IMG/VR virus record: IMGVR_UViG_3300040815_002100
Span: 1 to 24,781 of that record
Source of the DNA: a virus
Length of the DNA: 24,781 nt
Reading direction: 5' to 3' (one strand)
Below, in pieces: positions 4,165 through 24,520 of this stretch; positions within the stretch are counted from its first letter, which is position 1, and each line of letters starts with the position of its first letter. A program made the translations under genes and the position numbers. The notes under the pieces were generated by a model. That model was not told the origin of the DNA, ran no database searches, and was given only the letters and a program-made list of their open reading frames with translations.

Positions 4165-5658
4165 ATGACCCTATTTTTACAACGCGATAGTAAGGTCTTC
4201 CTAGAGAAGACCGTAGGATCGCAGACACAGTATTGGGAAGTCCCTGTTCTTGAGGGTTTCTCTTTTAGTCAAGGAAATGAAACAACGGAAACTGTTCTTA
4301 GCGAAATGGCCGATGATAATGGGCTAACTCGTCGTGGACGCCGTATGTTTAATGATGCTCTGTCTCCAGCAGAATGGTCGTTTAGCACATATATTCGTCC
4401 ATTTAAATCTTCTGCTACGGGTAGCGGTAAGGCAGATACTACAGGAGCACATCACCTAATTGAAGAAGCACTTTGGGCAAACTTTGTTGGTGATGGTGGT
4501 TGGATGACCAGCACTTCTGGTGTTGCTACAGTAGATACCCCTGCAGGCGGTGCAAGTGGTGCAGCCGGAACATATGAAATTGATCAGCTAGAGTACACTA
4601 CAGACAGTGCTGCTGGTTCTGGGGCAACCTTTAGAATTACTCATGGTGGAGGAACTCTAGACGCGTCTGCTGTTACTATTGTTAATCCCGGTTCTGGATA
4701 TGTAATCAACGATACGTTTACTATCCCAAAAGAGAGTATTGGAGACGCATCAAGTGATTTTACTTTTGATGTCGCATCACTAACTTCGGGAGCTGGTGCA
4801 GCTTATGATTATGAACTAGAAAATATAGTTCATGGAACGTCTAGTAGTGCTATATACTTTACGGGTTCAAATCAGGCAGAACTAGGCACTTTTGCTCTTT
4901 ATTTTGTTCTTGGTGCCCAAAATGCTGCTACAGCAAATAACTACACTTCTGCTGAAATTGCAGATGGCAAAATTAAAATTTATAAGATTGCTAACTGTGT
5001 AGTAAATGAAGCTACTATCAACTTTGATGTAGATGGTATTGCTATGATTGACTGGAGTGGTAATGGTACAGAAATTACTGCTTATACTTCTGCTCTTAAT
5101 ATGACAACAGCTTCTGGCTCAAACGGTGGTGTAGTTACAGAAGATATTACGGCTACAGATAACTTTATTCGTAATAAGCTAACTGCTCTAAGTGCTACCG
5201 CAGCAAACGATACTGTTTTTGATGGTGCTGGTAGTGGTGTATATAACTTTACACTTACAGGAGGGTCTATTACGTTCTCAAATAATATTACCTTCCTAAC
5301 ACCAGAAGAACTGGGAACAGTTAATACACCTATCGGGCATATTACAGGTAATAAGTCTATTTCAGGTAACTTTACTTGTTATATTAGTGCAGGTCTTGCT
5401 GGAGACTCTGCTGACTTCTATGCTGATATGGTTAGCAATTCTGCAAAAGAGATTATCACGAATAGTTTCGATCTAACATTTAAGCTAGGTGGATCTAGTG
5501 GTACACCTCGCCTTGAAATCAATTTGCCAACTACGCACATTGAGATTCCAACTGTAAACATTGAAGATGTTATTGCTGTAGACATGAGTTTCCATGGAAT
5601 TCCATCTTCGATTGAAGCAGCAGACGAAGCAACTCTTACCATCGTAGGGGCAGCATAA
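4165..5658 (+). CDS. Major tail tube protein with inserted beta domain
   Basis: Stacked hexamers of this protein form the tail tube. The N-terminus (TLFLQRDSKVFLEK, VPVLEGFSFSQGNETTETVLSEM) and the repeated strand segments near the end (HIEIPTVNIEDVIAVDMSFHG) fit siphophage tail tube proteins. At 497 residues it is long for the family. Residues about 142-209 appear to be an insertion: the phrases GSGATFRITHGGG and NPGSGYVINDTFTIP match a small beta repeat found decorating many phage structural proteins, probably exposed on the tube surface. A strong Shine-Dalgarno AAGGAG lies at 4152-4157. Codon use is closer to the capsid gene than to the neighbours, as expected for an abundant protein. It is followed by a promoter-like sequence and a terminator before the chaperone genes. 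Confidence 0.85.
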   Translation: MTLFLQRDSKVFLEKTVGSQTQYWEVPVLEGFSFSQGNETTETVLSEMADDNGLTRRGRRMFNDALSPAEWSFSTYIRPFKSSATGSGKADTTGAHHLIEEALWANFVGDGGWMTSTSGVATVDTPAGGASGAAGTYEIDQLEYTTDSAAGSGATFRITHGGGTLDASAVTIVNPGSGYVINDTFTIPKESIGDASSDFTFDVASLTSGAGAAYDYELENIVHGTSSSAIYFTGSNQAELGTFALYFVLGAQNAATANNYTSAEIADGKIKIYKIANCVVNEATINFDVDGIAMIDWSGNGTEITAYTSALNMTTASGSNGGVVTEDITATDNFIRNKLTALSATAANDTVFDGAGSGVYNFTLTGGSITFSNNITFLTPEELGTVNTPIGHITGNKSISGNFTCYISAGLAGDSADFYADMVSNSAKEIITNSFDLTFKLGGSSGTPRLEINLPTTHIEIPTVNIEDVIAVDMSFHGIPSSIEAADEATLTIVGAA

Positions 5659-5674
5659 TTTAGAAAAATTTAAC

Positions 5675-5703
5675 TTGACAACCAAATCATGTTAAGATAA
5701 ACT
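5675..5703 (+). promoter_or_regulatory. Sigma-70-like promoter upstream of the tail chaperone genes
   Basis: A perfect -35 hexamer TTGACA at 5675-5680 is followed after 17 bases by TAAACT at 5698-5703, which matches the -10 consensus at four of six positions. The predicted transcription start, near 5710, lies inside the left arm of the terminator at 5705-5738. A transcript beginning there would lack most of the left stem. The site is in a 95-base gap between the major tail gene and the first chaperone gene. The weak -10 keeps this tentative. Confidence 0.45.
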
Positions 5704-5704
5704 T

Positions 5705-5738
5705 ATAGCATCTGGGTAATCTCAGATGCTATTTTTTT
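5705..5738 (+). terminator. Intrinsic terminator after the major tail gene
   Basis: A perfect nine-base-pair stem TAGCATCTG / CAGATGCTA (5706-5714 with 5723-5731), extendable by one A-T pair, encloses an eight-base loop and is followed directly by seven T residues (5732-5738). This is a textbook Rho-independent terminator. It probably reduces readthrough from the highly expressed major tail gene into the chaperone and tape measure genes. The ribosome site AAGGAG for the next gene begins only four bases after the T run. Confidence 0.85.
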
Positions 5739-5753
5739 GTATAAGGAGATAAA

Positions 5754-6170
5754 ATGAGTAAAATTTCGTCAATGTTGACAAATAAACTTGAAGCCTGGAT
5801 TGAAATGGAAGGCTTTGATGGATTTGAGGTAAAAGTCGCATACCTCTCCCGAGATGAACTAAATAAGATTCGTAACACAGTAACTCGTACAAGCTGGAGT
5901 CCAAAGACTCGCCAAAAAGAGGAAACTATTGATAACGAACTATTTATGCGCGAATTTACAAAAGCAGGTGTACTAGACTGGAAAGGCCTAACTCTAGAGC
6001 ACGCAAGCAAACTGCTACCACTTGATGTTTCAGATGTAGAAGACATGAGTGTTGAAATTGAATATAGCCCAGAAGAAGCTATTGCACTTACAGAACATTC
6101 TAATGTATTTGACTCTTGGCTAAATGATGTGATTTTTGATCTGGCCAATTTTCAAAGAAAAGGAAATTGA
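5754..6170 (+). CDS. Tail assembly chaperone (lambda gpG-like)
   Basis: This protein, together with its frameshifted longer form, is expected to coat the tape measure protein and recruit tail tube subunits during tail assembly. It is not part of the finished virion in lambda. The 138-residue length equals that of lambda gpG (140). The core EGFDGFEVKVAYLSRDELNKIR, then KTRQKEETIDNELFMREFTK and DWKGLTLEHASKLLP, is the common pattern of these chaperones: a beta hairpin, a basic loop and helices. A strong Shine-Dalgarno AAGGAG lies ahead of the start. The gene lies between the tube and tape measure genes, as in almost all siphophages. Its 3' end overlaps the next frame, enabling programmed frameshifting. 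Confidence 0.85.
   Translation: MSKISSMLTNKLEAWIEMEGFDGFEVKVAYLSRDELNKIRNTVTRTSWSPKTRQKEETIDNELFMREFTKAGVLDWKGLTLEHASKLLPLDVSDVEDMSVEIEYSPEEAIALTEHSNVFDSWLNDVIFDLANFQRKGN
6133..6167 (+). other. Programmed frameshift zone, +1 or -2
   Basis: The first chaperone frame ends at the TGA at 6168-6170. The second frame is closed upstream by a TGA at 6130-6132, so any frameshift must happen within these 35 bases. Moving from the first frame to the second needs +1 (equivalent to -2), unlike the -1 shift of lambda. Three slip sites give good codon-anticodon re-pairing. TTT C at 6150-6153 allows a +1 slip of tRNA-Phe. AAA G at 6159-6162 allows a +1 slip of tRNA-Lys. The five T at 6133-6137 allow a -2 slip of tRNA-Phe. 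The fusion product would have about 261-262 residues, close to lambda gpG-T (279). I cannot tell which site is used. Confidence 0.6.
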
Positions 6171-6540
6171 AGAATTACTAAAGATTATGGAGAAGTTTAT
6201 GAAAGACATAGACTCTCCAATAGATAAAGAAAAATATTTAAAAATACAAGAACAAATGGGATTAGAACCCGATCCCAAAAAGATACCTCTAGGGTTTGAA
6301 GATATACCTGCCGACTGTCAGTTGGCTTTTAGCATTTATACTAAACTTGGAAACCGTGTTTATGGGGATGTTGGATACACAGGCAAAGATTATACCAACC
6401 TCCCAATTCTCATCGAAATACATAATATTTGTGATAAAGGATTACTAATAGAACTTCTAAATGTAATAGAAGGATACTATATAGATAAAAACCAAAAGCA
6501 AATTAAGAAGATGTACGATGACTTAAAGAAAAAGAAGTAA
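6136..6540 (+). CDS. Tail assembly chaperone extension (lambda gpT-like)
   Basis: This frame is the C-terminal domain of the long tail assembly chaperone, made by frameshifting from the preceding gene. The T domain is thought to contact the tail tube subunits. The segment FEDIPADCQLAFSIYTKLGNR, followed by GYTGKDYTNLPILIEIHNI, is typical of gpT-type extensions, with a conserved aromatic and Leu-rich helix. The first possible initiation codon in the frame is TTG at 6136, without a good ribosome site. An internal ATG at 6187 is also poorly placed for initiation. Independent translation therefore looks unlikely, and the stated start simply marks the frame. It ends in a Lys-rich tail and overlaps the tape measure start as TAATG. 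Confidence 0.75.
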   Translation: MIWPIFKEKEIEELLKIMEKFMKDIDSPIDKEKYLKIQEQMGLEPDPKKIPLGFEDIPADCQLAFSIYTKLGNRVYGDVGYTGKDYTNLPILIEIHNICDKGLLIELLNVIEGYYIDKNQKQIKKMYDDLKKKK

Positions 6541-9500
6541 TGGCAAAAAGGACAATTTCTATCAAAGCCCGTCTCCAAGCAGACACTAAAGGCTTTGAAA
6601 AAGCAGAAAAGTCATCCAAAAACACTGCTAAACATATGCGGGATCAGGCACGTGCGTCTGAAAGAATCAAGGAAAATATGAAGCATACGGGCAGCAAAAC
6701 TGCCAAAACGGGTATGTCAAGAACAGAATATCTAGGTACTAGAAGTACTGTGGGGACCGGACGCTCTGCCGCCAAAAACTTTAGTGGCATGGCTCAAGCA
6801 GGTGGAATGACTAGTGGTTTTGTTGCTGCATATGCTACTCTTGCAGCTAACATCTTTGCCTTAACCGCTGCTTTCCAAGCCTTGTCCGATGCAGCTAAAG
6901 TTCAGCAACTTACCCAAGGGCTAGAACTTATGGGTGCTCGTGGGGGTGTTGCTCTTAAAGTAACCGCCGACGGTCTAAGAGAAGTCACAAATAATGCTAT
7001 TTCTACGGCAGATGCTATGCGCTCAGTTGCACAGGCATCTTCAGCGGGTTTAGGATCAGAAGAAATTGAAAGACTGGGTAGAGTAGCACAAGGTGCTGCT
7101 TTGGCTTTAGGCAGAGACACTTCTGAGGCTATGGATCGTCTAACTCGTGGTGCAATCAAACTAGAACCTGAATTGCTTGACGAACTTGGTATTATGGTAC
7201 GTCTTGACGAGGCTGTAAAAGAGTATGCAGCAGCTAACGGAATAGCGGCCTCTAGTGTTACACTTACCCAAAAAAGACAAGCATTTTTAAATGCTGTTTT
7301 GGCAGAGGGGGAGCGCAAGTTTGGTGATATTAATGAGCAAATTGACTCTAACCCGTATGATAAACTTTCTGCTTCTGTAAGAGATTTTGGCACAGATGTT
7401 ATGAAAATAATAAATGGTGCACTAGTTCCTTTTATTAAAGTTTTAACAGAAACTCCATCCCTAGGCTTAGTACTAGCTCTTGGCATCCTAAAGCAAAGTT
7501 TTAGTAAAGTTCTTCCTTCAATGGAAAAAACCTATATGGCTAGTGTTAATAGAATGGAAGCTTATAGGGCAAGTGCTGGAGCACTTAAGCCAGATATTGC
7601 AGATGCTAAAAGACAAAAAGATCTTCTAACAGGGGCTGATCAAGTTAAAGCACAAAGAGAGTATAATAATCTAGTAACTAGGCAAAAAAACGTAGAAGCT
7701 TTAATTGCTATTGAAAAGAAAAAGCAGGCAGCTTATGAAGCCTATAGATCAAACTTAGCTAAAGGCAATGTTATTACTGCTCGCAAAGAATATTTATTAA
7801 CGCTTGCTACACTTTCTGCTGAAGAAAAGAGAGTACAAGCACAAGCAAAAATGAATGTGCTTACAAGTGTTAGACTTGCTCTGTCTGGTGTAGGGGCTGC
7901 ACTTACTATGGTAGTTGGTGTTCTTAGTACTGTGATGACAGTTCTTGCTATTGGATATGCACTATTTGCGGGTATTAAGGCTCTGTATAAGTACCTTAAC
8001 CCACCAACAGAAGCACAAAAAAGGTTAGAAGCACAAAATGAAAAGTTAAAAGAAATTACAGAATCCGCAGAAAAAACAAGAGAGCAGTTAGATAAACTAA
8101 GTGTAGGAGAAGCTACAGATGCATTAGCTAATTCTACACTAGACCTAATTACCGCACAGAAGAGAGTTCTTGAATTAGAAAAACAGATAGCACGAGAATC
8201 TGCACTAGCATTCGAAGCAAGAGCTAAACGTATAAGGTTAGCTCATGAAGAATATAAGCTGGCCCAGCTTATGGTGGATCTTAGAAGCGCTGAAGATAAA
8301 GCGCTAGATACCTCTGCGATAGAACAACAAATAGTAGCGCAGGAAAACGTTGTAGCAAGCTTTGAAGCACAGATGCAAAGTGCAGCAGATAAAGTTGCAG
8401 CAATAAAGTTTTTTAAAGACGAGGACAAAAGTATACAGCTTATCTATCAAGGAGTAAAAGATTTAGTTCCTGAGCAGGCTGCGCTTGTAGATCAAGCTAT
8501 CAGAGAAGGAAAATCCAGAGAAGAAATTGTTGCTCTTCTTTATGCAGCAGAACCAGCAGTTAGACGACTACAAAATATTAATAAAGATCTTGCAGAGTCT
8601 ACACGCCAAATTTCCGAAGGTTTTAGAGATCTAAGACTAAAAGATCTAGATACTAACTTTACAGAAATAGCTGGAAGTGTCGGAAGTATCATGAGCCGGT
8701 TCGATCAGCTAACAATGGCAGGTCAAGACACAAGTAGAGCAGTATCCGCATTAAGAGAGAATTTAATAAAAACAGGAGAAGTTGATATTAACTCTATGGT
8801 TAATATCGCAGCAAACTTAGGTATTGAAATAGAAGGTATAGAAAAACTAAGTGAGCTAGCTGATGCAATATATGAAGTTGCTGATGCTCAAAGCTACTTT
8901 AATATGCTTGATGAAAATGACCCTATGAAAACAGCTGCAGCAACTTTATTGCGAGTAGCTCAAGAAAAAGTAGATAGTCTTCTTAATCCTGAGACTATCA
9001 AGACTATAGACGCTGCGGCACAAGGTATAGAAGATCGCTTACAGGAAAATATTATATCCGAAAAGACTGCAAAAGCAAAACAAGCTATTTTAAAAGAAGA
9101 AAACGCTATTTTAAAAGATAACTTGCAGACAACAAGAAAAATAAATCAACTTGAAAATAGTAGACTTAATACAACAACTCGTTTTGATTCTATACTTAAA
9201 AGCGCTACAGCCCTTACTCAAAGTTTAGAAGATACAGAGATGAAAAGACAAGAGGCTGCTAATAATCTTGCTGCTATTACACAAAAAGATACAGAGTTAA
9301 GAGCACAGCTAGGAAGAGCACAAGCAGAGTTTGATGCACAGGAAACTGAAGCAAACCAAAGAACGATAGACTACTTAAATGCACAGATTAGTGCAAACGA
9401 AACTCTAGCACAAACGCAAAGAGATCGCATTAAAAACGAACTTAATAATGTTCTTAAAATACAAACAGCTCGTGCACAAGACCTTGCTTTTAGAACAGAA

Positions 9501-10985
9501 GCTGCTCAAATGGGGCTAAGGGCTACAGATTCTCTTATAGCACAAGTAGACTTAACACAACAGACCGAAGAGCAAGCACAGCTACTTCTTGCAGCAGAAG
9601 AAGCTCGTATTGCAGCACAAGACAGACTTATCAAACAAAAAAGAGAAGAGTTTGACTTACAAAATAAAATTAATGCTGCAAACAGGGCAAACGTACAAGC
9701 AGGTAGGGAAAGATTTGCACAGCGACTAGGCTTGGGTAGTATGCCAGAGCGCTTTGCAGAAACAGAAAATCTGCAAGCACGTTTAGATGTTATTGATGGT
9801 CAAAAAGCACTACTAGAACAAGAAAAACAAGCAGCTCTTAGTAAAATTAATCTTGAAGAACAAGTATTTATGGTTAGAATGGCTGCTGCAAAACTAGAGC
9901 TGCGAAATGCTATAACTAATGCAGATATATCAACACCCGAAGGCTTGGCTGCAAGAAATGAAGCACAAACTGCTCTTGATAGTCTTAGTGGATTAAATCT
10001 AAATGATTTTGCAAGAGACTTTGAAGAGCAAAGAAACGGTATTACAGAAACTTTTAGGCTTCGTGGAGAACTTCTAGCAGAAGAAAGAACTGGCGTAGAA
10101 CAGGCCCTTGCTGGAGTTATACAAGGTGCAGCTGGCATAAAAGAACAAATTATTGCTCAAATGCAACTTGGCACAGCATTTAACATCGGTACATTTGGCT
10201 TAGAGGGTCAGGCTAGAGAGTTTGTAGCGCAGGAAACTACAGGTATTCTTGCGGACAAAACTATGACCGACGAAGAAAAAGCAGCAGCTATTGACCAAGC
10301 TCGTGCTATGGGGTCAGAAATACAAACAGCACAAATGTTTGCAGATGGTCTAAGTAATATTATGGACACTGTTGCATCTTCTACAGAAGCAGCTTTTATG
10401 GCAATGATTGACGGCTCTAAAAGTGCTAAAGAAGCGTTTGCTGATATGGCAAAAGCAATTCTAAAGCAAATTGCACAGATGATTATTAAGATGCTAGTGT
10501 TTAAAGCTATTGAGATGGGTCTAAATGCTATTGCTCCTGGGTTTGGAACAATGATGGTAGGAGGTGCAAACGCATCAGGAGCCACAGGAAGCGGCGGTGT
10601 TGCCAGCTCTACGAAAGCCAAGATCAAATCAAAAGGTGCTGCTGGCGGTATCATAGGCTATGCAGATGGTGGTATCATTAAGCCCAGGGACGGTTTACAG
10701 GGCGTTGTTAAAAGACCCACATATCTTGTTGGAGAAGGTCGCTATAATGAAGCTGTTGTACCACTACCAAATGGACGAGCAATACCAGTGCAGATGCACG
10801 GCGGTCAAAGCAGCCAGCAAAATAATGTATCTGTAAGTGTAAATGTTGATAGTAACGGGTCTGCCTCAACTACCACTTCTGGAGACTATCAGGACCTTGG
10901 TGCAATTATTGGACAAGCGGTGCAAAAAGAACTTATTGCACAAAAAATGCCTGGGGGTATTCTTAATAGATATGGAGCAGCATAA
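6540..10985 (+). CDS. Tape measure protein
   Basis: This protein fixes tail length and is released into the host envelope during DNA entry. At 1481 residues it is the largest gene apart from the fibre region. Using the usual ratio of about 0.15 nm per residue, it predicts a tail near 220 nm (an estimate). It is almost wholly helical and rich in Ala, Gln and Glu. Hydrophobic segments lie at about residues 90-117 (TSGFVAAYATLAANIFALTA), 294-320, 444-488 (three closely spaced stretches before a Pro pair) and 1310-1345. The glycine-rich C-terminus, with GGIIGYADGGII, PTYLVGEGRYNEAVVPLPNG and a Gln/Ser/Asn tail, is the usual ending of tape measure proteins. No muralytic domain is evident. The gene overlaps both neighbours by one base (TAATG). 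Confidence 0.9.
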   Translation: MAKRTISIKARLQADTKGFEKAEKSSKNTAKHMRDQARASERIKENMKHTGSKTAKTGMSRTEYLGTRSTVGTGRSAAKNFSGMAQAGGMTSGFVAAYATLAANIFALTAAFQALSDAAKVQQLTQGLELMGARGGVALKVTADGLREVTNNAISTADAMRSVAQASSAGLGSEEIERLGRVAQGAALALGRDTSEAMDRLTRGAIKLEPELLDELGIMVRLDEAVKEYAAANGIAASSVTLTQKRQAFLNAVLAEGERKFGDINEQIDSNPYDKLSASVRDFGTDVMKIINGALVPFIKVLTETPSLGLVLALGILKQSFSKVLPSMEKTYMASVNRMEAYRASAGALKPDIADAKRQKDLLTGADQVKAQREYNNLVTRQKNVEALIAIEKKKQAAYEAYRSNLAKGNVITARKEYLLTLATLSAEEKRVQAQAKMNVLTSVRLALSGVGAALTMVVGVLSTVMTVLAIGYALFAGIKALYKYLNPPTEAQKRLEAQNEKLKEITESAEKTREQLDKLSVGEATDALANSTLDLITAQKRVLELEKQIARESALAFEARAKRIRLAHEEYKLAQLMVDLRSAEDKALDTSAIEQQIVAQENVVASFEAQMQSAADKVAAIKFFKDEDKSIQLIYQGVKDLVPEQAALVDQAIREGKSREEIVALLYAAEPAVRRLQNINKDLAESTRQISEGFRDLRLKDLDTNFTEIAGSVGSIMSRFDQLTMAGQDTSRAVSALRENLIKTGEVDINSMVNIAANLGIEIEGIEKLSELADAIYEVADAQSYFNMLDENDPMKTAAATLLRVAQEKVDSLLNPETIKTIDAAAQGIEDRLQENIISEKTAKAKQAILKEENAILKDNLQTTRKINQLENSRLNTTTRFDSILKSATALTQSLEDTEMKRQEAANNLAAITQKDTELRAQLGRAQAEFDAQETEANQRTIDYLNAQISANETLAQTQRDRIKNELNNVLKIQTARAQDLAFRTEAAQMGLRATDSLIAQVDLTQQTEEQAQLLLAAEEARIAAQDRLIKQKREEFDLQNKINAANRANVQAGRERFAQRLGLGSMPERFAETENLQARLDVIDGQKALLEQEKQAALSKINLEEQVFMVRMAAAKLELRNAITNADISTPEGLAARNEAQTALDSLSGLNLNDFARDFEEQRNGITETFRLRGELLAEERTGVEQALAGVIQGAAGIKEQIIAQMQLGTAFNIGTFGLEGQAREFVAQETTGILADKTMTDEEKAAAIDQARAMGSEIQTAQMFADGLSNIMDTVASSTEAAFMAMIDGSKSAKEAFADMAKAILKQIAQMIIKMLVFKAIEMGLNAIAPGFGTMMVGGANASGATGSGGVASSTKAKIKSKGAAGGIIGYADGGIIKPRDGLQGVVKRPTYLVGEGRYNEAVVPLPNGRAIPVQMHGGQSSQQNNVSVSVNVDSNGSASTTTSGDYQDLGAIIGQAVQKELIAQKMPGGILNRYGAA

Positions 10986-24483: not shown

Positions 24484-24520
24484 AAAAAACCCCGGAACCG
24501 AAGTTCCGGGGTTCTTTTTT
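24484..24520. terminator. Bidirectional intrinsic terminator
   Basis: A perfect nine-base-pair stem CCCCGGAAC / GTTCCGGGG (24490-24498 with 24503-24511) with a CGAA loop is flanked by six A on the left and TTCTTTTTT on the right. It can therefore end transcripts from both sides. It closes the rightward structural operon and the leftward nrdB gene. The nrdB stop codon (24519-24521) overlaps the right T run by two bases. Confidence 0.9.

Follow-up and report, generated by a model that had tools for sequence, protein, structure and literature searches.

How can a stop signal for one set of phage genes and the promoter of the next set occupy the same few bases, and what would such an overlap accomplish? 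The question is raised by a stretch of viral DNA of 24,781 nucleotides (IMG/VR record IMGVR_UViG_3300040815_002100, here called the window), which carries the gene set of the tail module of a T5-like siphophage. Its major tail, chaperone and capsid proteins show roughly 27–39% identity to those of Demerecviridae by tblastn. No DNA-level relative was found among cultured phages, and a genome scan for the host returned only two distant metagenome-assembled matches, labelled Gammaproteobacteria and Halieaceae and too remote for assignment.

All features of the junction lie on the + strand. Upstream is the gene for the major tail (tube) protein (4165–5658, stop codon TAA at 5656–5658; PHROG 3575 major tail protein, E 1.4e-48), 32–36% identical to Demerecviridae major tail proteins by tblastn. 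Downstream is the tail assembly chaperone gene (5754–6170, ATG at 5754; PHROG 313, E 7e-15), the first of a unit that also holds the tape measure gene (6540–10985; PHROG 3779, E 9.2e-50). The 95 bases between the major tail and chaperone genes house a promoter, a hairpin, a T7 tract and the ribosome-binding site AAGGAG of the chaperone gene (5743–5748); the stop signal and the promoter of the next genes share about 75 bases directly after the tail-tube gene. The first-pass annotation had described a TTGACA-N17-TAAACT promoter with its start near 5710, inside the left arm of a strong hairpin with seven T, and this description holds. The −35 element TTGACA (5675–5680) and the −10 element TAAACT (5698–5703) match the consensus at 10 of 12 positions, and the usual sigma-70 spacing places the predicted start at A5710, 7 nt after the −10 and within the left arm. 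The terminator hairpin (5705–5732) is formed by ATAGCATCTGGG (5705–5716) and CTCAGATGCTAT (5721–5732) around the loop TAAT, with 12 pairs of which 5 are G-C, and runs into the T7 tract (5732–5738), whose first T pairs with A5705. Folding 5700–5740 gives a minimum free energy of −17.3 kcal/mol, where shuffles give −4.3 ± 1.9 (z −7.0). The window holds only two strong + strand terminator candidates, at 5705 and 24488; the latter (24488–24513) stands behind the last tail gene and is the probable end of the unit starting at 5710.

Other features of the surrounding genes were recorded. The chaperone ORF (5754–6170) and the ORF at 6136–6540, which overlap at 6136–6170, resemble one frameshifted pair. 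In L017, L019, L021, L022 and L023 a conserved UUU-C (UUU C at 6150–6153 in the window) marks the point where the chaperone protein passes into the +1 frame, and in L024 the continuation is apparently in the −1 frame. The major tail proteins of the window, L017 and L022 carry an insert of about 80 residues near position 110–230, and those of L019–L021 are without it. The major capsid gene is followed by GGACCCCC-TTCG-GGGGGTCC (1283–1306), a sequence with no T tract that may be a 3' stability element; at the corresponding position T5 carries an annotated terminator.

We read the overlap, with a probability of roughly 0.7, as a compact boundary of termination and re-initiation that parts the tail-tube mRNA from the chaperone and tape-measure mRNA. 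The mRNA from the head and major tail genes would hold the whole hairpin and U7, leading to release at about 5738–5740. A sigma-70-type promoter of the phage's own class, directly upstream of and overlapping the terminator, would then drive a fresh round of transcription, beginning at about 5710, through the chaperone, tape measure and distal tail genes. These new transcripts would be without the outer 5 stem pairs, and the polymerase should read through. The start site, the termination, the escape and the effect on protein ratios are predictions of this model.

A promoter match alone proves nothing, because promoter-like matches occur at chance level in the window: a consensus scan of its first 12.5 kb found 24 sites where shuffles predicted 30. 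Consensus scans, with counts at or below shuffle expectation, were rejected as proof. The junction site is lifted above chance by its conservation in relatives. It has TTGACA-like and TATAAT-like hexamers about 17 nt apart, as sigma-70-type promoters do, and an A-rich block near −43, a mark of promoters of the T5 kind. This block, AAAAAT (5664–5669, −46 to −41), fits the position of the proximal half of a UP element; its five As (5664–5668, −46 to −42) belong to the promoter and were absent from the first-pass annotation. In a gap-free alignment of 54 distinct junction promoters, A occupies all five positions from −46 to −42 in 54 of 54, T stands at −41 in 51 and C at −36 in 53, none of which was required by the search that gathered them. 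Wherever a class promoter is present at the junction it has TTGACW, a spacer fixed at 17 nt and TANNNT. The −10 had been called weak, and TAAACT is indeed off consensus; at the aligned position relatives have TATACT, TACACT, TATATT or TATAAT.

The class to which this promoter belongs, AAAAAT-N5-TTGACW-N17-TANNNT, occurs genome-wide in these uncultured T5-like phages, as judged from seven related contigs (G001–G007, the records behind L053, L017, L022, L062, L021, L099 and L002). These contigs hold 47 exact sites of the form AAAAA-N6-TTGACW-N17-TANNNT, 18 of them in one contig of 100 kb, and none of the reversed pattern used as a control. The window has exactly one site. Membership in a phage-wide class and the fixed 17-nt spacer support the junction promoter as a real one on comparative grounds. 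They also bear on the idea that the terminator alone works, the promoter-like sequence being a chance or decaying match and the downstream genes living on read-through. The off-consensus TAAACT and the chance-level matches in the window would suit that idea, but the invariant A5 block and spacing in 54 distinct junctions, the consensus −10 of relatives and the 47 class sites against none in the control make it very improbable.

Inverted repeats, such as TTGACAA-AAAA-TTGTCAA, also cover the −35 and spacer (5675–5695 in the window) in several members of the nested clade described below, and the repeat TTGACA...TGTTAA is striking in L021 and L022. They are possibly operators; column covariation at these repeats was not above background across all junction promoters.

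Is the hairpin simply a part that promoters of this class carry? The class scan used the pattern A5-N6-TTGAC-N18-TANNNT, and 46 of the 47 sites were read out for hairpins. A hairpin stands at the start site in all six tail-tube/chaperone junction sites and in none of the 40 other class sites, which have no terminator-type hairpin within −4 to +20 nt of the −10. The six junction hairpins are of the terminator type and begin −1 to +12 nt from the −10. A generic leader hairpin shared by all class promoters was rejected on this count (0 of 40). The distribution of six of six against 0 of 40 indicates that the hairpin is no standard leader but a feature of the 3' boundary of the major tail gene.

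The relatives of the junction were reached by two routes. When viral contigs were scanned blind for TTGACA-N16-18-TAAACTTATAGC, 14 loci came up, of which eight share the promoter, with the exact form TTGACA-N17-TAAACTTATAGC, the hairpin and T7 at the same junction. A search with the chaperone protein independently recovered the same contigs. In the close relatives, whose chaperones are 73–100% identical to that of the window, the sequence hardly changes between −46 and the T tract. A more distant comparison used the interval between the stop codon of the major tail gene and the start of the chaperone at 205 loci, which reduced to 113 distinct sequences, and here three layouts appear. In type I, the nested layout, the left arm begins −4 to +2 nt from the end of the −10. 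In type II the whole hairpin begins +10 to +20 nt from the −10, past the predicted start. In type III a classic terminator finishes well before the −35 and the promoter follows. Both elements are missing from a further group, T5 and cultured Vibrio phages included, whose major tail gene leads directly into a minor tail gene. Where loci have both the module and an intervening minor tail gene, the module still lies directly behind the major tail gene.

The nested layout marks one clade, to which the window belongs: a single branch (support 97/98) of a tree built from 59 major tail proteins separates all 15 type I rows from the rest. Types II and III, which occur in sister lineages, mix with each other on the same tree, and about five changes are needed for each. 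Within the nested clade, eleven representatives have about ten different stems of 12–17 bp, with no fewer than three kinds of pair at each of the first twelve positions, and 5–7 T follow the stem throughout. These comparisons indicate that the sequence of the hairpin has been replaced many times in the clade, with its pairing, its T tract and its register to the −10 conserved. The hairpin at the junction is a stable stem-loop directly followed by a U tract, in which pairing is conserved instead of sequence, as in an intrinsic terminator. The elements of the boundary, their register, their conservation throughout the clade and their restriction to the junction are properties of the sequences themselves. 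Type III shows terminator and then promoter at the same junction, which suggests that both activities are wanted there.

These data weigh on the proposal that the hairpin is mainly a 5'-terminal stem-loop that protects the chaperone/tape-measure mRNA or tunes its translation, with upstream termination incidental. From the predicted starts, new transcripts of the window and of several relatives would carry a 6–9 bp hairpin at their extreme 5' end, and type II relatives have a complete leader hairpin, some with a poor T tract (poor in L150 and L155, good in L065 and L056). The proposal is nonetheless unlikely, because 5–7 T stand behind the stem throughout the nested clade, almost no stable hairpin remains after the start in L149, L136, L017 and L053, the other 40 class promoters have no leader hairpin, and the type III terminator, lying upstream of the promoter, cannot be in a leader.

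The register of promoter and hairpin is what the boundary model depends on. In RNA folded from the predicted start at 5710, the outer 5 of the 12 pairs are gone and 7 are left (−7.5 kcal/mol), with the base of the residual stem 5 nt short of the U tract. Displacing the base of a stem from the U tract should abolish most of intrinsic termination, and read-through from 5710 is expected because the residual hairpin is weak and set apart from the U tract. The earlier claim that promoter-born transcripts would lack the left arm needs to be narrowed accordingly: the outer pairs are predicted to be lost, but the arm is not wholly lost and a 7-bp hairpin stays. Escape hinges on the exact start, since a start at 5708 would keep 9 pairs and leave −14 kcal/mol. 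In relatives the shortened hairpins range from −0.4 to −11.8 kcal/mol, a range that leaves out the type II rows L056, L060, L088, L104, L106 and L117. The window is not the cleanest nested case, as several relatives (L017, L047–L053, L136 and L149) retain a far weaker residual hairpin of −0.4 to −4.6 kcal/mol.

Such dependence on two nucleotides lends something to another reading, a promoter with an attenuator, in which the hairpin partly stops transcripts of both sources and sets chaperone and tape measure low, truncation being a by-product. Besides the 9 pairs kept from 5708, the architecture of type II speaks for it: there the start lies upstream of a complete terminator, as in a leader attenuator, whereas in the window the predicted start falls inside the terminator. 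Type I registers, however, always remove 5–11 outer pairs and shift the stem base from the T tract, and we consider the attenuator a poor fit to this junction and rather improbable. The type II hairpins may be either attenuators or leader structures, or termination so near the start may be inefficient. They are the chief difficulty for the boundary model: lying wholly beyond the start, they would be carried intact by the promoter's own transcript, which indicates that truncation is not a general requirement for escape in this family.

The boundary model has a cost of its own. Where the layout is nested, polymerases leaving the major tail gene cross the −35, the −10 and the start before stopping about 25 bp downstream, and traffic of this kind predicts promoter occlusion through transcriptional interference. 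The type III layout shields its promoter from upstream polymerases; the type I layout does not. Heavy upstream traffic should partly occlude the junction promoter, and the uncoupling is probably incomplete because upstream polymerases cross the promoter before they stop. Of the first proposal, that the overlap would uncouple chaperone and tape measure levels from tail tube expression, comparison backs the promoter, the hairpin behind the major tail gene and their register; the predicted uncoupling is to be tempered in its extent. Negative coupling or polymerase recycling is a possibility besides uncoupling. Two single-molecule reports (PMC6978380, PMC6978322) describe polymerase that often remains bound to DNA once intrinsic termination has occurred and is able to start again from promoters close by. 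The overlap could in this way be a coupling device beyond the saving of space: tail-tube polymerases would occlude the chaperone promoter and, after RNA release 22–30 bp past the start, slide back and re-initiate, tying the supply of chaperone and tape measure to tail-tube transcription. We regard this stronger version as doubtful.

A comparison of the junction with known systems shows familiar parts in a different order. The T5 promoters P-J5, P-G25 and P-N25 (Demerecviridae, AY543070) are of the sigma-70 type and, like the window, have an A-tract about 6 nt upstream of the −35 and 17-nt spacing. P-J5 reads AAAAA-N6-TTGACA-N17-TATACT, and of the 46 annotated T5 promoters 12 show the exact A5-N6-TT form, P-J5 and P-N25 among them. 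T5 often sets promoters directly behind terminators. Its order, however, is always terminator and then promoter, with overlap confined to the upstream A/T block and the start never in the stem; this tandem order is found in type III and not in the window, whose terminator starts downstream of the −10. Between the major tail gene and the chaperone of T5 there is a minor tail gene and neither of the two elements; T5 itself was rejected as a model since it has no such element at this junction. Ordinary intrinsic terminators resemble that of the window in its 12 bp stem with 5 G-C pairs, 4-nt loop and U7. They differ in that the left arm here overlaps the start region of another promoter, and the whole hairpin is predicted only for upstream transcripts. 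The gene VIII/gene III boundary of the filamentous phages M13/f1, unrelated to the phage of the window, likewise has a terminator after the most abundant structural protein and a separate promoter for the scarcer next one. Post-termination recycling resembles the junction in that a promoter adjoining a terminator can be reused by polymerase still on the DNA; it is a single-molecule phenomenon on test templates. We found no matching description in the open literature searched of a promoter that starts in a terminator arm, or of promoter–terminator overlap in phages, which is weak evidence that a start in a terminator arm is new.

The junction presents a natural compact part in which one hairpin would stop one class of transcript and spare another by start position alone. 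It lies where the quantity of tube protein that siphophages need differs greatly from that of chaperone and tape measure. With three natural layouts, nested, promoter-first and terminator-first, occlusion, escape and polymerase recycling can be compared directly, and the A5/TTGAC motif offers a way to annotate promoters throughout a large group of uncultured T5-like phages.
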